This document shows, piece after piece, positions 30,227 to 38,003 of a stretch of 38,003 nucleotides of DNA (position 1 is the stretch's first letter; each line of letters starts with the position of its first letter). The DNA is taken from contig CABYEA010000011.1 in assembly GCA_902517895.1 (NCBI GenBank), positions 1 to 38,003 on the forward strand. Direction: 5' to 3'. The stretch is from an uncultured Bacteroidota bacterium (GTDB lineage: Bacteria > Bacteroidota > Bacteroidia > Flavobacteriales > Flavobacteriaceae). The notes under the pieces were generated by a model. The model worked only from the letters and a program-made list of their open reading frames with translations. It was not told the origin of the DNA and searched no databases. A program made the position numbers and the translations under genes.

Positions 30227-31099
30227 GTGAATAGACTTTTTGTTTCTTTACTGATTATTTTTATTTTAAAATTTGATTTCAGTTACTCACAGTATACTGA
30301 AATCATTAATTCAAATAGACCAGGCAGCTCATCTGGCGCTTTCTCTGTAGGTAAAAATATACTACAACTCGAAAACGGTTTTTATTACACTAATGAGCAG
30401 CATCAATTGTTAAACTACAAGGTCAAAGGCTTTGGGGCAGACTTTAAAATTAGATATGGGCTTCTATATGATAAACTAGAGATGATTATAGATGGAGTAT
30501 ATCAGGCAGATAATTTTACAGATAATCGATATTCACTTTCTAATAGTTTTGACAGAAAAAACTTTAAGAAATTTAAAATTGGAGCTAAATATCTAATTTA
30601 TGACCCAAAAAAAGGTCAAGTTGAAAAACCCAACGTATACAGTTATTTTGCTGATAAAAAATTTAATTGGAAAAATCTTATTCCGGCAATTTCAGCATAC
30701 ATTGGATTAAATTTGGATTCAAGAAATAACCCATACACAAATACGAATGTGAGCGGCATCAATCCATCAGTAGCAATTTTTACACAAAGCAATATCACAT
30801 ACAGATCGGTTATTACTACAAATTTAATCTTTGAGAGAATTGGTTCATCACAAAATGATTTCGAATATATCGTTTCGCTAAACCACGCGTTTAGTGAAAG
30901 TATGATTGGATTTATTGAAACCCATGGAATAAAGAGTGATTTTTATGCTGAAAACAAAATGAATTTCGGGGTCGCATATCTATTTAGTGATAATCTTCAA
31001 ATTGATACAGGTGTTAGTGTAAACTTTAAAGACACTCCACAAATATTTAATGTGGGCCTTGGCTTGAGCTATAGACTTAATTTAAATCAAATAAAATGA
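30227..31099 (+). CDS. outer-membrane beta-barrel protein (transporter/phenol-degradation MetA-like family)
   Basis: A 290-residue secreted protein. A signal peptide covers residues 1-22 (MNRLFVSLLIIFILKF, then DFSYSQ) with signal-peptidase I cleavage likely after SYS. The mature part has alternating hydrophobic/polar strands (LQLENGFYYTN, FKIRYGLLYDKLEMIIDGVY, FKIGAKYLIYD, IPAISAYIGLNL, LIFERIG, MIGFIETHGIKS, MNFGVAYLF, LQIDTGVSVNFKD, FNVGLGLSYRL). NRPGSS at the mature N-terminus is typical of this Bacteroidota transporter family. It is predicted to be a small outer-membrane barrel; the cargo is unknown. The start is GTG. The following acyltransferase gene overlaps its stop as ATGA, so the two are coupled. 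Confidence 0.85.
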   Translation: MNRLFVSLLIIFILKFDFSYSQYTEIINSNRPGSSSGAFSVGKNILQLENGFYYTNEQHQLLNYKVKGFGADFKIRYGLLYDKLEMIIDGVYQADNFTDNRYSLSNSFDRKNFKKFKIGAKYLIYDPKKGQVEKPNVYSYFADKKFNWKNLIPAISAYIGLNLDSRNNPYTNTNVSGINPSVAIFTQSNITYRSVITTNLIFERIGSSQNDFEYIVSLNHAFSESMIGFIETHGIKSDFYAENKMNFGVAYLFSDNLQIDTGVSVNFKDTPQIFNVGLGLSYRLNLNQIK

Positions 31100-32217
31100 T
31101 TGATATTATAAAGGTTTCTAACAATTCAGAGTTAAGAGAATTTGTTATGTTTCCATTTAAATTATATAAAGGTTCAAAATATTGGGTTCCCCCTATTATT
31201 GAACAGGAAATGAATAGTTTCAACAAGGATTTAAATCCTAATTTAAAAGACTCAAGCGTTGAACTATTTTTAGCATTTCAAGACAAAAAAGTTGTAGGCA
31301 GAATAGCTGTGATTATAAATTGGTATGAGGTAAAAAAACAAAAGACTAATAAAATAAGATTTGGCTGGTTTGATTTTATAGATGATTTTGATGTAAGTAA
31401 AGTGCTTTTAGATAAAGTTGTAGAGTCTGGTAATAAAAATAAACTTAAATACATGGAGGGACCAATGGGCTTTAGCAACTTGGATAAAGTTGGAGTTTTA
31501 ACCAGCGGATTTGATATTATTAGTACAATGATTACAATATATAATTATGATTATTATAAAAATCATTACGAAAAATATGGTTTAAAAGTTGAAAAAAAAT
31601 TTCATGAAAAAACTTTTATGTTTAAGGAAATTGACACAACTTACTATGAAAAGATGAGTAGAATTGTAAAAACCAGAAATAAATTAAGTGAAGTCAATTT
31701 TACTTCTACTAACGATGTAATGAAAAGAGCAAATGATATGTTTGATTTATTTAATGAATCTTATTCTAAATTATCTTCATTCGTAAAGATTTCTGAAATA
31801 CAGAAAGAATATATGAAGAAAAAATTTCTAAGTTTTATTAAGCCAGAGTATATAAAGTTTGTAGAAAATAGTCAGAATAAAATTGTTGCTTTTGCTATAA
31901 TTATGCCTTCTTTTGCCAAAGCTCTACAAAGAATGAATGGTAAATTATTCCCATTTGGATTCTTACACATGTTATATGCTAAAAAATTTAATAAAGATGT
32001 CACATTATACTTAATTGGAATACACCCAGATTATCAAAAAATGGGTGTTACCGCAATAATCTTTAACTCGTTTATACAGACACTGAAAAATAAAGGAATA
32101 CAAGTCTGTAGAAGAACTCCAGAACTTGTAGACAATATATCAGTTGATAAAATATGGAAAAATTTTAATCCTAAACTAATTAAAACTAGATCGACTTACA
32201 AGCTTAATCTTAATTAA
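31096..32217 (+). CDS. GNAT-fold acyltransferase, possible N-acyltransferase of sulfonolipid/ceramide type
   Basis: A 373-residue protein with an N-terminal block FPFKLYKGSKYWVPPIIEQE, a middle block FGWFDFIDD and EGPMGFSNLDKVGVLTSGF, and a C-terminal GNAT-like part with LYLIGIHPDYQKMGVTAIIF, where the QxxGxx segment resembles the acyl-CoA pyrophosphate-binding loop. Flavobacterial homologues are often mislabelled GTP cyclohydrolase; nothing here supports that. The LYKxxxxWVPP and F-E-GP-FS patterns recall the GNAT-like ceramide synthases of alpha-proteobacteria (from memory). It converges on, and shares stop bases with, the cysteate fatty-acyltransferase-like gene, so an N-acylating role in sulfonolipid synthesis is a reasonable hypothesis, not a demonstrated fact. 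Confidence 0.72.
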   Translation: MIDIIKVSNNSELREFVMFPFKLYKGSKYWVPPIIEQEMNSFNKDLNPNLKDSSVELFLAFQDKKVVGRIAVIINWYEVKKQKTNKIRFGWFDFIDDFDVSKVLLDKVVESGNKNKLKYMEGPMGFSNLDKVGVLTSGFDIISTMITIYNYDYYKNHYEKYGLKVEKKFHEKTFMFKEIDTTYYEKMSRIVKTRNKLSEVNFTSTNDVMKRANDMFDLFNESYSKLSSFVKISEIQKEYMKKKFLSFIKPEYIKFVENSQNKIVAFAIIMPSFAKALQRMNGKLFPFGFLHMLYAKKFNKDVTLYLIGIHPDYQKMGVTAIIFNSFIQTLKNKGIQVCRRTPELVDNISVDKIWKNFNPKLIKTRSTYKLNLN

Positions 32218-33458
32218 CCTAAGCTTTCAGAAAGTTTTTTATAAACTCCTGTGACTAATCTTTCCCTAATTGAAGAGAAAGCTTCTAAAGTTTCCTGAAT
32301 ATCATCAAAGTTATGCGAGGCAGTTGGAATAAGCCTTAATAAAATTAAACCCTTTGGAATTACAGGATAAACTACAATAGAGCAAAATATCTTATGGTTC
32401 TCTCTTAAATCTTTAACCAATGCCATAGCTTCGGGAACTGATCCTTTTAAATAAACTGGAGTTACACAACTTTGTGTTGTACCAATATCAAAACCTCTTT
32501 CTTTTAATCCAGATTGAAGTTCATTTACATTATCCCAAAGCTTTTGTTTAAATTCAGGTCTAGTTCTTAACATTTCTAATCTTTTTAAAATACCTTCGAC
32601 TAATTGCATTTGTAAAGATTTTGCAAAGACCTGGGATCTCATATTGTATTTTAAAAAATCTATAATGTCTTTATCAGATGCGATAAACGCTCCTGTACTG
32701 GCCAGAGATTTAGCAAAAGTGGCAAAATAGACATCAATTTGATCTTGTACTCCTTGCTCCTCACCTGCTCCAGCACCAGTCTTACCTAGTGTTCCAAATC
32801 CATGAGCATCATCAACAAGTAATCTAAAATTAAATTTTTTCTTAAGCTCAACAATCTCCTTCAATTTGCCCTGTTCACCTCTCATACCAAAAACACCTTC
32901 TGAGATAACTAAAACCCCTCCATTAGTTTCTTTTGCTATTTTGATTGCTCTGTTTAGATTTTTTTTAAGACTTTCCATGTCATTATGCTGATAGGTGAAC
33001 CTTTTTCCGAGATGAAGTCTAACTCCGTCAATAATACAAGCATGAGCATCAATATCATAAACTATAACGTCATTTTTACTAACCAAAGAATCAATAGTTG
33101 ATAATATACCCTGATATCCAAAATTTAACACATATGCAGCTTCTTTATTAACAAACTCAGCTAACTGATTTTGAAGTTTCTCATGCAAATCTGTATGACC
33201 TGACATTAATCTAGCGCCCATCGGATAAGCAGAACCATACTTGGCAGCGGCTTCTGCATCAACCCTTCTTACTTCTGGATCATTTGCTAAACCCAAATAG
33301 TCATTGACACTCCAGGTAATTACTTCTTTTCCATTAAAATTCATTCTGTTTGAAATTGGACCCTCCAGCTTCGGAAATGCAAAATATCCTTCAGCAATAT
33401 CGGCCCATTTTCCTAACGGACCTTTGTCCTGACGCATTCTATCAAATAAGTCTCTCAT
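32214..33458 (-). CDS. capB: cysteate C-fatty acyltransferase-like alpha-oxoamine synthase (capnine synthase)
   Basis: A 414-residue PLP enzyme of the alpha-oxoamine synthase family. SVNDYLGLAND, GARLMSGHTDLHEKLQ, DAHACIIDGVRL with the ring-stacking His138, VDDAHGFGTLGKTGAG and TFAKSLASTGAF with the PLP-binding Lys250 are visible. Relatives are serine palmitoyltransferase and 2-amino-3-ketobutyrate CoA ligase. The N-terminus DLFDRMRQDKGPLGKWADIA, the FPKLEGPIS stretch and its coupling to a cysteine-synthase-like gene point to the flavobacterial enzyme that condenses cysteate with a fatty acyl thioester to build the capnine base of sulfonolipids, reported as needed for gliding in Flavobacterium johnsoniae. 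The start overlaps the capA-like stop as TAATG. The alternative, Kbl, is less likely, although a threonine aldolase gene is nearby. Confidence 0.78.
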   Translation of the reverse strand: MRDLFDRMRQDKGPLGKWADIAEGYFAFPKLEGPISNRMNFNGKEVITWSVNDYLGLANDPEVRRVDAEAAAKYGSAYPMGARLMSGHTDLHEKLQNQLAEFVNKEAAYVLNFGYQGILSTIDSLVSKNDVIVYDIDAHACIIDGVRLHLGKRFTYQHNDMESLKKNLNRAIKIAKETNGGVLVISEGVFGMRGEQGKLKEIVELKKKFNFRLLVDDAHGFGTLGKTGAGAGEEQGVQDQIDVYFATFAKSLASTGAFIASDKDIIDFLKYNMRSQVFAKSLQMQLVEGILKRLEMLRTRPEFKQKLWDNVNELQSGLKERGFDIGTTQSCVTPVYLKGSVPEAMALVKDLRENHKIFCSIVVYPVIPKGLILLRLIPTASHNFDDIQETLEAFSSIRERLVTGVYKKLSESLG

Positions 33459-34501
33459 TATTTTCTAATATATTGTATATCGTTATTATTAATTTCTCTT
33501 TTTGAATCTGAAAATCCTTGATTTTCCATCCACTTATCACTGTAAATTTTACTTAAATACCTTGAACCATGATCAGGGAAAATTACTACAATAACATCTG
33601 TCTTATTAAATTCTTTTTCATCATTAAGTTGCTTAACTGCTTGAAATGCTGCACCGCTTGTGTAACCAACAAAAATGCCTTCATGCTTAACAAGCTGTCT
33701 TGCAGAATGCGCACTATCTTCATCAGTAACCTTAATATATCTATCGATGATTTCGAAATCAGTTACAGATGGTATTAGATTTTTTCCAAGACCTTCAATT
33801 CTATATGGGTATATTTCATTTTCATCAAACTCTCCTGTTTCATGATATTTCTTAAGAACTGACCCATACGCATCAACTCCAATAACTTTAATATTTGGGT
33901 TTTTTTCCTTTAGATACCTGGCTGTTCCTGAAATTGTACCGCCAGTGCCACTACAAACTATTAAATGTGTAATATTTCCGTCAGTTTGATTCCAAATCTC
34001 TGGTCCTGTCGACGAGTAATGTGCATCTGCATTTAAATCATTAAAATATTGATTAATATAAATTGATCCCTTAATTTCACTATGAAGCCTTTTCGCAACC
34101 TCATAATATGATCTTGGATCATCGGCCGATACGTTAGCAGGGCATACATACACTTTTGCACCCATTGCCTTTAACATATCAATCTTATCAGTTGATGATT
34201 TAGAAGACACAGCCAAAATACATTTGTATCCTTTAATTAATGACACCATGGCTAAGCTAAATCCAGTGTTTCCTGATGTAGTTTCAATAATTGTATCACC
34301 AGGTTTTAAAATACCCTTTTTTTCAGCACTCTCAACAATGTGTAAAGCAATTCTATCTTTTGAAGAGTGACCTGGATTAGCGGATTCAAGCTTAGCAAGG
34401 AAAGTTCCCGAAAAGTCTCTGGTTAATTTATCAATTTTTACCATCGGGGTATTTCCCACAAGCTCCAATAAATTATTGACTACATTTTTATTTTTTTTCA
34501 T
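33458..34501 (-). CDS. capA: cysteate synthase-like PLP enzyme (cysteine synthase family)
   Basis: A 347-residue fold-type II PLP enzyme. [16 protein letters not shown] carries the PLP-binding lysine (Lys48), [13 protein letters not shown] the substrate loop, and [15 protein letters not shown] the phosphate-binding glycines. Ordinary CysK/CBS proteins have NPGGSVKDR at the lysine; the H-S-S change here marks a separate subgroup. No CBS domain is fused. Coupling by TAATG to the capB-like gene identifies the pair reported in sulfonolipid-making Bacteroidota, where this enzyme makes cysteate from O-phosphoserine and sulfite. O-acetylserine sulfhydrylase or cystathionine beta-synthase are alternatives. 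ATG 34501 is used in preference to a TTG one codon upstream. A -7 box lies at 34538-34531. Confidence 0.75.
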
Positions 34502-34530
34502 CAATGAAAGACAATTGTTTTAGAGCAATA

Positions 34531-34538
34531 CAAAAATA
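34531..34538 (-). promoter_or_regulatory. candidate -7 box for the capA-capB operon
   Basis: The minus strand reads TATTTTTG, an exact TAnnTTTG match, ending 29 bases before the ATG at 34501. It lies in the 68-base gap after the threonine aldolase gene, so the two lipid genes can be transcribed on their own. No convincing -33 box. Confidence 0.4.
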
Positions 34539-34569
34539 AACGTTTTTGAGCTGATTTTTAAATTATATG

Positions 34570-35592
34570 TTATAAGTTATCGACAACCTTAAGTAGATAA
34601 TTATGCTCATGATCGCTGTAATTTAGATGAGTTACGATTCTAATCTTTTTAAACCCCATAGAATTCCAATCAAATAAAATTTCTTTATCATAAAAATAAT
34701 TTATAATTGTTTGCTTATCTACAGAATCTTCAAGTTCTAATATTATGATATTTGTTTCAACATCATTTACACTCTCAATACAATCCTTAGACAAGAACAT
34801 TGATGAAATCTCTTTAGCTCTTTGATGATCAATAGATAATCTCTCTAAATTGTTTTCAAGAGCATATAGTCCTGCTGCCGCTAAATAACCTGCCTGACGC
34901 ATTCCTCCACCAAAGATTTTTCTAACCCTGAGTGCTTTGTCTATAAATTTTTTTCTTCCTGCTAATACAGAACCCACCGGACAACCAAGACCTTTACTTA
35001 AACAAACAGAAATGGTGTCAAAATAATCTCCATATAACTCAGGCTTGTTTTCTTTAGCAACTATTGAATTCCACACTCTAGCCCCATCCATGTGCAATCC
35101 AAGCTTATTGTCATCACATATTTTTTTTATTTCCTCAAAATGTTTGACATCCCAACAATGTCCACCACCTTTATTGGTGGTATTTTCCAAAGAAACCAAT
35201 TTTGTCAATGGTGAGTGATAAAAATTCTTTGGGTTTATTGCATGTTTTAACTGATCTGGATTGAACATACCTTTATTACCTGAAAGAAGCTTAAAGGAGA
35301 CCCCACTATTAAAAGAAGCTCCGCCACCTTCATAATTGTAAACATGGGAATATTCATGAGCAATAACCTGATCTCCTGGGTTTGTATGAATTTTTACAGC
35401 AGTTTGATTAGCCATTGTTCCAGATGGAAAAAACATTGCACTATCCATTCCAAAAAAATTAGCAATTTTATTTTCTAGCTCTTTTACTGTTGGATCCTCT
35501 CCATATACATCATCTCCAACTTTAGCATGGAGCATAAAGTCAAGCATTTTATCACATGGTTTCGTTATCGTATCACTTCTTAGGTCTATCAT
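34570..35592 (-). CDS. ltaE: low-specificity L-threonine aldolase
   Basis: A 340-residue fold-type I PLP enzyme. The start at ATG 35592 is chosen because MIDLRSDTITKP is the canonical N-terminus and it lies one base after the upstream stop; an earlier start at 35625 would overlap that gene. GDDVYGEDPTVKELE, FFPSGTMANQ, LENTTNKGGG, LHMDGARVWN and CLSKGLGCPVGSVL with PLP-binding Lys200 are all present. It cleaves L-threonine or allo-threonine to glycine and acetaldehyde. It is translationally linked to the metalloprotease gene, and its product may also feed serine/glycine supply. Confidence 0.95.
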   Translation of the reverse strand: MIDLRSDTITKPCDKMLDFMLHAKVGDDVYGEDPTVKELENKIANFFGMDSAMFFPSGTMANQTAVKIHTNPGDQVIAHEYSHVYNYEGGGASFNSGVSFKLLSGNKGMFNPDQLKHAINPKNFYHSPLTKLVSLENTTNKGGGHCWDVKHFEEIKKICDDNKLGLHMDGARVWNSIVAKENKPELYGDYFDTISVCLSKGLGCPVGSVLAGRKKFIDKALRVRKIFGGGMRQAGYLAAAGLYALENNLERLSIDHQRAKEISSMFLSKDCIESVNDVETNIIILELEDSVDKQTIINYFYDKEILFDWNSMGFKKIRIVTHLNYSDHEHNYLLKVVDNL

Positions 35593-35593
35593 T

Positions 35594-38003
35594 TTATTTG
35601 AAATAGCCGCAATTATCTGTTCCAATCGGGGAACCGTCAGGTATTTTTAATGAATCCATGATTTCGTATTCTTTAGGATCTTTATTAAAATTACTTATCA
35701 TCTCTAGATAATGACTGTGATATTTTGAAAGTTTATAGTCCTTTCTTCTTTTTGATGATAGTTCTGATGAAATTTTTCTTACAAATTCATTACTTATACT
35801 TTTTACCTGAGAATAACTACTTGAACTACTAATAACATTAAAAACATTCTTTAAAAAAGAGGTATTAACTATATGTTGAATCTCCTTAAAGTAGGAGTCT
35901 TCTAATGCTGTAATATTTGAAGACTTTAAAAAGATCGTTTTTCTTAATAACAAATCATATAGTTCATTAAGACTCAGATTTGAATTATCTAATGAATGCT
36001 GTAATATTAATCGATTTAATCTTTTTGGCCTTAAAATCAAACTTAGGGTCATATCAGCAGATGTTTCAGCAACCGAAAAAGGATCAAAAGCAACACCTAG
36101 GTTAGACTTAAACGACTCTCTAGTTCTTGGAAATCCAAATGCTCTTGGGGGAAACAATTGTAATTTTTCCTTTGGGATTGCTAAAAAATCAGCGTGTAAT
36201 GTTTTCATTAATGAATTTAAAGCGTGTATTTGATTGACTCTTTCAATGTGGAAGAAGTCCTGCTGATTATCCCCAACCAAAGAGTAATTGTAATCCATAC
36301 CTCCAATTAACTTTACAGTAGCTTCAGTCTGATATCTGTGAAAAAAGTACAATGGAACAAAAACGTCCTCCAATACTGAATTTGGTGTACCTGCTGGAAC
36401 ATTATACTCTGAAAAATTTTCAATTGCCTTTTTTCTGATATCTATTACGTTGTCTAACCCAGAGTAAGCAGTTTCTCCGTTATCCCATAAGTGAGCATAC
36501 GCATGGGAACCGTCAATTGATCTAGCATCGTAATCACTAATAAATCTTAAACCTTCACTAGTTGAATTTTCCAATATTTTATTTAACTCAAAATCCTCAT
36601 TTTGATCCGATCTAAAATCACTGTAGCTATATGCAACAGTAACTTTATCCCAATCTCCAATTCCAGTATCATAAGCATCGTCAAAAACAATTTCATCACC
36701 GATTAAATTTACCAACGGATGAGGATAATCCATAACTGAAGCCCTATGATTTGTGCTTGCTGCAAAATTGTGGGCAAATCCGATTGTATGCCCAATCTCA
36801 TGGGCACTCAACTGTCTTATTCTGGCTATGGCTAATTCCATCATCTTATTGTTATTATTTTCAGAAGCGAATGGTTCTTTTGTCAATGCCTGAGCTATCA
36901 TATAATCCTGTCTAATTCGAAGACTCCCTAAACTTACGTGACCCTTAATTATTTCACCAGTTCTTGGATCAACTACACTAGCACCATAACTCCATCCTCT
37001 AGTAGAGCGATGAACCCATTGAATAACATTATATCTACAATCTAATGGATCTGCACCTTCTGGAAGCATTTTTACCTGAAAAGCATCTTTAAAGCCAATA
37101 GATTCATATGCCTGATTCCACCATCTTCCGCCATCTAATAAAGCACTCTTAACAGGCTCTGGTGTTCCAGGATCTAAGTAATAAACAATTGGCTCAACTG
37201 CTTCAGAAATTTCTAGTTCTGGATTTTTCTTTTTTAATCTGTGTCTTATAACGAATTTTTTTGTGATTGGCTCGTCAATTGGCGTTGAATAGTCCATAAA
37301 TGAAATTGATATAGCTCCGCTTCTAGGATCAAATTTTCTGGGCTGATATTTGTTATCAGGAAGTTTTATAAAAGAGTGGTGTTGAACAACTGAGACATTA
37401 TCTGGGTCTGGGGAAACACTTCTGATCATGCTACCCTTTGCCTCACCTGAAAAAGTTAATAGAGCTTCAAATTCGACATTATCAGGAAACGCTTTTGTGT
37501 TAAAAATTTCAATCGCACTTTTAGATTTGTCAACTTTGTATGAGCCTTGTTTTAGATCTCTTAGTCTTTTTGCCACCCCATGTCTATCATACAATAAAAA
37601 AGGGGTAAAATCAATTAAATAATGTTCATCATTTGTTTCAACAATTTCAAATCCGAAAATTACAGATTTTGCAAAAGCTTGTTCAACGCTTTTTTTCTCA
37701 CTAATATTTTCAGTTTGGGCTCTGTAGTATAGGTTTGGCTCAACTAATAATATTTTGTTACCCTTTTTAACAAATTTAACCAACTTTTCCAGCCCTAATT
37801 GGCCTCTATCTAAACCTATATCATTTGAACCAATTCCTGAGGCAAGTGATCCAATGTAAAGAAACTCATAATCTAGCTTATCAACCTCTAGGAAAATTTT
37901 ATCTTTAGATTCATCATATGAAAAATCAAAAAAACCTTTGAATTGATCTGATTCATTTACGTTTGAAAATGAAAAAATAATCGAAAGAATAAAAAAAGTT
38001 AGT
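35594..38003 (-). CDS. zinc-dependent metzincin-like metalloprotease, DUF5117/DUF4953 type (start just outside window)
   Basis: The frame is open through the right edge. The TTG at 37783 is internal: upstream it continues with a hydrophobic signal stretch (LTFFILSIIFSFSN), then FKGFFDFSYDESKDKIFLEV and YIGSLASGIGSNDIGLDRGQ, the N-terminal block of this family. At least 802 residues are visible, and only a few are missing. The catalytic motif HEIGHTIGFAH (HExxHxxGxxH, coded at 36802-36770) is followed by a Met-turn-like SVMDYP. It is exported, probably to the periplasm or cell surface, and likely degrades peptides. No type IX C-terminal domain is visible: the end SPIGTDNCGYFK lacks the usual Ig-like sorting domain. 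Confidence 0.9.
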   Translation of the reverse strand, partial: LTFFILSIIFSFSNVNESDQFKGFFDFSYDESKDKIFLEVDKLDYEFLYIGSLASGIGSNDIGLDRGQLGLEKLVKFVKKGNKILLVEPNLYYRAQTENISEKKSVEQAFAKSVIFGFEIVETNDEHYLIDFTPFLLYDRHGVAKRLRDLKQGSYKVDKSKSAIEIFNTKAFPDNVEFEALLTFSGEAKGSMIRSVSPDPDNVSVVQHHSFIKLPDNKYQPRKFDPRSGAISISFMDYSTPIDEPITKKFVIRHRLKKKNPELEISEAVEPIVYYLDPGTPEPVKSALLDGGRWWNQAYESIGFKDAFQVKMLPEGADPLDCRYNVIQWVHRSTRGWSYGASVVDPRTGEIIKGHVSLGSLRIRQDYMIAQALTKEPFASENNNNKMMELAIARIRQLSAHEIGHTIGFAHNFAASTNHRASVMDYPHPLVNLIGDEIVFDDAYDTGIGDWDKVTVAYSYSDFRSDQNEDFELNKILENSTSEGLRFISDYDARSIDGSHAYAHLWDNGETAYSGLDNVIDIRKKAIENFSEYNVPAGTPNSVLEDVFVPLYFFHRYQTEATVKLIGGMDYNYSLVGDNQQDFFHIERVNQIHALNSLMKTLHADFLAIPKEKLQLFPPRAFGFPRTRESFKSNLGVAFDPFSVAETSADMTLSLILRPKRLNRLILQHSLDNSNLSLNELYDLLLRKTIFLKSSNITALEDSYFKEIQHIVNTSFLKNVFNVISSSSSYSQVKSISNEFVRKISSELSSKRRKDYKLSKYHSHYLEMISNFNKDPKEYEIMDSLKIPDGSPIGTDNCGYFK

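Follow-up and report, generated by a model that had tools for sequence, protein, structure and literature searches.

Sulfonolipids are the sulfur-containing counterparts of ceramides. They are reported among the dominant outer membrane lipids of Flavobacterium johnsoniae (PMC12045153), have been tied to gliding (PMC10191378), and trigger choanoflagellate development (PMC3463246); these and the papers below are cited from the parts of their text that were available. The published CapA-CapB pathway to capnine, represented by CapA and CapB of Capnocytophaga, Fjoh_2419 of F. johnsoniae, and SulA of A. finegoldii, covers in those parts cysteate synthase, condensation, and reduction. Capnine N-acylation is drawn there without an enzyme (PMC10191378) or mentioned without a gene (PMC9304779), and the enzyme for step three of four has been identified (PMC11211663). 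In a contig of 38,003 nucleotides from an uncultured member of the Flavobacteriaceae (CABYEA010000011.1, the whole of which is called the window here; contig C11 of a 1.26-Mb assembly that is 68% complete), a gene encoding a GNAT-type acyltransferase faces a CapB-CapA gene pair and adds a candidate N-acylation gene to this pathway. We consider it likely from homology and gene context that the GNAT N-acylates capnine or 3-ketocapnine; the locus would then provide for the sulfonolipid backbone and, probably, for the N-acyl chain as well.

The closest described relatives of the GNAT are the bacterial ceramide synthases (bCerS or CerS), represented by Caulobacter CC_1154, Escherichia coli B YghO, and B. 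fragilis BF9343_4218. CC_1154 has been named CerS, a ceramide N-acyltransferase (PMC11324152), yghO of E. coli B is listed as its orthologue (PMC9386255), and ceramide synthases of Bacteroides and Prevotella have already been published (PMC10865984). In BL21, yghO adjoins genes for a fatty acyl-AMP ligase, an epimerase, an acyl carrier protein (ACP), and spt. The window GNAT resembles these enzymes in full-length homology to YghO and in length (373 versus 380 amino acids [aa]), and members of its family in other Bacteroidota adjoin genes for serine palmitoyltransferase (SPT) and CerR-like proteins. It differs from them in its low identity to YghO, on which alone the comparison was made, in its separate clade, and in having CapB rather than SPT as its partner. 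OlsB and GlsB are likewise N-acyltransferases of bacterial lipids, with PF13444 as their aminolipid N-acyltransferase domain (PMC11631085). The GNAT family differs from them, as 24 GNAT members matched 15 families at E values up to 0.1, none of them PF13444. An earlier reading of the same DNA from its letters and open reading frames (the sequence-only reading) had held that the final acylation step has no assigned gene in flavobacteria. This agrees with the available parts of the open-access literature, in which we found no named gene for sulfonolipid N-acylation; subscription papers were outside the scope. Within that literature, the kind of enzyme (the bCerS family) is known, and its assignment to sulfonolipids appears to be new.

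The locus comprises the following features.

31096 to 32217, plus strand: tandem-GNAT acyltransferase of 373 aa, bCerS-like, candidate sulfonolipid (capnine) N-acyltransferase (from YghO homology, fold model, and co-occurrence with CapB)
32214 to 33458, minus strand: CapB/SulA cysteate fatty-acyltransferase of 414 aa, an alpha-oxoamine synthase (from PDB matches and diagnostic lysines)
33458 to 34501, minus strand: CapA cysteate synthase, with its ATG start at 34501 (from NF053679)
30227 to 31099, plus strand: PF13557 (Phenol_MetA_deg) beta-barrel-type outer membrane protein (OMP), first gene of the OMP-GNAT pair (Pfam, 87 bits with a cutoff of 22)
31096 to 31099, plus strand: ATGA overlap holding the OMP stop and the GNAT start (from the sequence)
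32214 to 32217, no strand assigned: TTAA holding both convergent stop codons, of GNAT and CapB, in a 4-nucleotide gene overlap (from the sequence)
33456 to 33460, minus strand: TAATG holding the CapA stop and the CapB start, with a 1-nucleotide overlap (from the sequence)
34570 to 35625, minus strand: GntG-family pyridoxal phosphate (PLP)-dependent aldolase, a recurrent neighbor for which no pathway role is claimed (NF041359, 350.7 bits with a cutoff of 230)

The GNAT, CapB, and CapA reading frames are all intact; for CapA, the open reading frame caller gives a TTG start at 34504, and the ATG at 34501 was taken. The TAATG overlap of the capA-like and capB-like genes and the TTAA shared by the GNAT gene and CapB, both pointed out in the sequence-only reading, are present at these positions. 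The "three-gene island" described there holds in that the three genes are clustered as placed; it missed the OMP gene, and the ketoreductase (CapC) is not in the cluster. The unit is OMP-GNAT facing CapB-CapA, without CapC. The stop of the OMP gene and the start of the GNAT gene overlap, which couples the two, with the GNAT gene in second place.

The identity of the CapA-CapB pair is well marked. CapA scored 630.3 bits against the NCBIfam model NF053679 (CysteaSynCapA), passing its curated equivalog cutoff of 600. CapB matches PF00155, and its Lys250 falls in the alignment column of the PLP lysine in SPT and KBL. Its best solved relative is PDB entry 28eh, "Cysteate-C-fatty acyltransferase" (E = 3.7e-205), and the match is full length; it also hits 7u7h, titled "7-keto-8-aminopelargonate synthetase-like enzyme" (E = 1.3e-168), which we take to be the SulA entry. 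In SulA, Lys281 is described as standing in place of an alanine of SPT (PMC9304779). The window CapB has Lys280, 30 residues past the PLP lysine, the same spacing as that of Lys251 and Lys281 in SulA, and two SPTs show alanine at this position. The diagnostic lysine was present in all 80 named CapB loci, which are the best 80 of at least 590. Against the SPT equivalog NF047600, the window CapB reached 304.9 bits, short of the cutoff of 640. The pair of cysteate synthase and cysteate fatty-acyltransferase proposed in the sequence-only reading is thus upheld by the CapA score and by the lysine and structure matches of CapB, which would make 3-ketocapnine from cysteate.

Family models place the GNAT only generically (Pfam GNAT, 22.9 bits with a cutoff of 20.7). 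BLASTP against E. coli YghO gave 23% identity over 334 aa (pairwise E = 1e-30), and hhalign aligned the two with a probability of 100% over 367 columns, nearly the full length. The AlphaFold model (pLDDT 91.2) has a tandem GNAT fold, with best VIA-align matches to 5kf2 (Z 22.7, 300 residues aligned, 3.4 Å) and the tandem GNAT 7q3a (Z 22.6, 303 aligned, 3.4 Å). The structural neighbors, which are tandem GNATs, Eis proteins, and N-myristoyltransferases, give no hint of the substrate; in searches of solved structures, the GNAT profile found only weak matches and YghO none at an E value of 0.1. A resemblance to bacterial ceramide synthases had been noticed from the sequence alone, and it is strengthened by the nearly full-length homology, by rows of SPT, GNAT, and CerR genes elsewhere in the phylum, and by the occurrence of the close GNAT only with CapB in the order. 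We file the window protein as a bCerS homologue, not as a ceramide synthase, because no SPT over the cutoff was found in its own genome or in 60 genomes of its family.

The GNAT is closely tied to CapB by gene order. It was found in the examined flank of 52 of the 80 named CapB loci and was convergent with CapB in all 52, with a PF13557 OMP gene adjoining it in 50. The cultured species Algibacter lectus, Winogradskyella vidalii, and Robiginitalea myxolifaciens are among its carriers. Within the window's family (f1, Flavobacteriaceae, which includes Psychroflexus curvus, G091), the two genes were convergent within 1 kb in 21 of the 28 genomes of the phylum survey described below that have both. 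This convergent arrangement is not due to chance. It is part of a block conserved across loci, made up of genes for a zincin, GntG, an S9 peptidase, CapA, CapB, GNAT, OMP, YfhO, and a glycosyltransferase. In many related loci, the S9 prolyl oligopeptidase gene lies between those of GntG and CapA (e.g., L122:2347-4488); the window has no S9 gene at 34501 to 34570, and CapA directly follows the GntG gene.

Conservation of the whole block, some genes of which have no obvious connection with lipids, could mean that the GNAT has a different amine as its acceptor (an amino acid, a peptide, or another aminolipid precursor) and sits beside capAB merely by belonging to the block. What happens when the genes are unlinked speaks against this. 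No GNAT was seen in the examined flank of 28 of the 80 named loci, in four of which the flank on that side is shorter than 3.1 kb. Searching the genomes of 24 of these 28 revealed a GNAT elsewhere in 16 and none in 8, and the same search recovered the gene in 6/6 control genomes with an adjacent GNAT. In family f5, GNAT and CapB are likewise kept though unlinked, for example, 1.7 Mb apart in G028. The homology to the ceramide synthase orthologue YghO and the absence of PF13444 from the matches of the 24 members also count against another amine.

Co-occurrence bears on the same question. A survey of relatives covered 40 genomes, including that of the window, with thresholds of at least 60% identity for CapB and an E value of 1e-60 or lower for GNAT. 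CapB was found in 30 and GNAT in 24, all within those 30; the 10 CapB-less genomes had no GNAT match, and in G020, which has CapB without GNAT, the contig stops inside CapB. Five genomes of the window's genus (G010, G015, G016, G017, and G019; 56 to 80% complete) yielded neither a GNAT nor a CapB orthologue, and the genus may be variable for this locus. A second survey covered 296 Flavobacteriales genomes (CapB at E 1e-80, close GNAT at E 1e-100 or better), 177 of which have CapB. The close GNAT occurred in 146 of these 177 and in 0 of the 119 without CapB; 17 further genomes (13 with CapB and 4 without) have only a weak GNAT. Excluding families f1 and f5, the close GNAT was still found in 8/33 genomes with CapB versus 0/119 without it (Fisher P = 2.4e-6, uncorrected for kinship). 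A third survey covered 296 genomes of the phylum (strong GNAT at 389 bits or more, CapB at E 1e-80) and found a strong GNAT in 66, of which 45 have CapB. Weaker family matches are nearly universal in the phylum, with 285/296 genomes having some match. The sequence-only reading had stated that a GNAT equally common in genomes lacking capA and capB would count against it; the Flavobacteriales result is the opposite, and phylum-wide, 21 of the 66 strong-GNAT genomes lack CapB.

Several observations weigh against a sulfonolipid role. In the 21 genomes just mentioned, CapB was not matched at E 1e-80, and the close GNAT is missing from 31 of the 177 CapB-containing Flavobacteriales genomes, 13 of which have a weak relative only. 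The contrast with 0/119 is dominated by two families and is without phylogenetic correction or a control gene, and as the two genes are mostly linked in f1, joint absence could result from one deletion. No GNAT was found near CapB in 40 further regions (20 from outside the order and a mixed set of 20 partly chosen for having no known GNAT nearby). In a tree of 53 GNATs, YghO groups with six of the eight SPT-adjacent members, and the window protein falls in a different clade. Homologues of CapA, CapB, and the ketoreductase are said to convert phosphoserine to sulfobacin B, with no fourth enzyme named in the available text (PMC11211663). Finally, the capnine ketoreductase was not identified in the window's own genome, which offered a generic 31% short-chain dehydrogenase match on contig C22; this absence means little because the assembly is 68% complete. 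A rule that a strong GNAT means CapB was also considered, and it fails beyond the order by the same 21 of 66 genomes. The GNAT family is not sulfonolipid specific everywhere. These 21 genomes, and a clade-I GNAT that lies apart from an SPT-GNAT pair in G261 and G162, favor the acylation of another amine; given the zero among 119 CapB-less genomes and the persistence of the GNAT with CapB after unlinking, we judge that explanation improbable.

Ordinary ceramide would be the product expected from the family elsewhere, and SPT-adjacent members of G036 and G071 fall in the same clade as the window GNAT. In other Bacteroidota, SPT-GNAT-CerR rows on one strand were found in L118, L119, and L124, and family GNATs lie directly beside SPT in L115, L120, L134, and L138. 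Six GNAT-adjacent SPTs were scanned, and the SPT model was their best NCBIfam match, at 491 to 674 bits; among these only that of L118 passes 640, and the SPT of L119 also passes at 731 bits. An SPT listing took E values of 1e-150 or lower, and its floor of 502 bits follows from that threshold. The CerR calls in the rows are weak (BLASTP, 21 to 28%); three were checked, and each has an Epimerase domain. By comparison, none of the 60 genomes of the window's family passes the SPT cutoff of 640, and the best match is 359 bits. Three of these best matches were scanned and are glycine C-acetyltransferases over their own cutoffs. In the window's own 68% complete genome, CapB (304 bits) is the sole SPT-model match at 1e-60. 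With no SPT over the cutoff and glycine C-acetyltransferases as the best matches scanned, no supplier of a long-chain base other than CapB is evident in the window's family. Ceramide synthesis by this GNAT is thus very unlikely.

The tree of 53 GNATs sets YghO, together with most of the SPT-adjacent members, apart from a clade that takes in all 16 CapB-adjacent members. Eight positions hold a residue that is constant (at least 95%) in the 16 CapB-adjacent GNATs and absent from the eight SPT-adjacent ones; we rejected them as specificity determinants, as the sequences are too few and too related. The GNAT of L112 (G119, family f37) nests among Flavobacteriaceae though its genome shares only the phylum, and horizontal transfer is possible. 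In L113 and L129 (G115 and G165, also f37), a clade-I GNAT occurs with ketoacyl-synthase and family-2 glycosyltransferase genes, joined in L113 by a short-chain dehydrogenase gene, possibly forming a dedicated acyl-donor cluster.

In the pathway we propose, CapA would convert phosphoserine to cysteate and CapB cysteate to 3-ketocapnine (both reactions as given in the available parts of the papers), a ketoreductase encoded elsewhere would reduce 3-ketocapnine to capnine, and the GNAT would transfer a second acyl chain, possibly 3-hydroxylated and from acyl-ACP, to the amine, yielding the N-acylated sulfonolipid. Which acceptor and acyl donor the GNAT uses, and whether it acts before or after reduction, are inferred. 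A variant compatible with our proposal puts acylation by the GNAT ahead of reduction, with 3-ketocapnine as the acceptor, following the model in which Caulobacter bCerS is cytoplasmic and acts upstream of CerR (PMC11087976). Capnine has been reported in Capnocytophaga and mouse cecum (PMC9304779), and the reductase linked to CapB is a short-chain dehydrogenase, not a CerR-type epimerase. In G030, the gene order is GNAT, CapB, and a short-chain dehydrogenase (adh_short by Pfam); in G026, G032, G033, and G453, a reductase lies between CapA and CapB, assigned to adh_short by Pfam in G453 and recognized in the other three as a homologue of the G030 protein. This dehydrogenase is a CapC-like candidate; among the 20 CapB regions from outside the order, one (L258) has such a gene directly beside CapB. 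Because of the reported capnine and this linked reductase, reduction first is favored here, and the GNAT could take either substrate; we view the prior acylation of 3-ketocapnine as possible, if doubtful. At L286:2145-5576 (G291), a 1,143-aa protein joins a CapB-like domain to a preceding AMP-binding ligase and acyl carrier domain, and similar long frames occur in G217 and G256. The L286 fusion suggests an acyl-ACP donor loaded in place.

The eight genomes in which the search found no GNAT are those of Psychroflexus curvus, Mesonia mobilis, Gramella jeungdoensis, Salegentibacter lacus, and four metagenome-assembled genomes (MAGs) whose completeness is not given (L154, L178 of Gillisia, L199, and L209). 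Mesonia, Gramella, Salegentibacter, Gillisia, and Psychroflexus are close kin. In the first three and the Gillisia MAG, the OMP gene lies directly beside CapB and the GNAT alone is missing from the block; G555, G579, and G607 show the same arrangement, with OMP beside CapB and GNAT gone. In Psychroflexus, the flank past CapB differs from the block. The GNAT of Lacinutrix neustonica is broken by stops; YfhO is also split there, so sequence errors are possible. The PF13557 OMP gene stays beside CapB after GNAT loss in L144, L145, L162, L178, L279, L280, and L281. Because it remains there, the OMP may be connected with sulfonolipids or the outer membrane independently of the GNAT.

On balance, we favor the view that the GNAT is a dedicated sulfonolipid N-acyltransferase, a branch of bCerS that works with CapB instead of SPT, and that capAB-bearing genera without it (Mesonia, Gramella, Salegentibacter, Gillisia, and Psychroflexus) either produce free capnine or rely on an unrelated enzyme in place of the GNAT. 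Mesonia, Gramella, Salegentibacter, and the Gillisia MAG, which lack only the GNAT from the block, are a natural test of this role. The gene is a candidate for a step so far without one, and cultured strains, an assay with its partner CapB, and natural gene-loss strains are at hand for studying it. If the proposal is true, the bacterial ceramide and sulfonolipid pathways would share a homologous acylating enzyme in addition to their homologous condensing enzymes.

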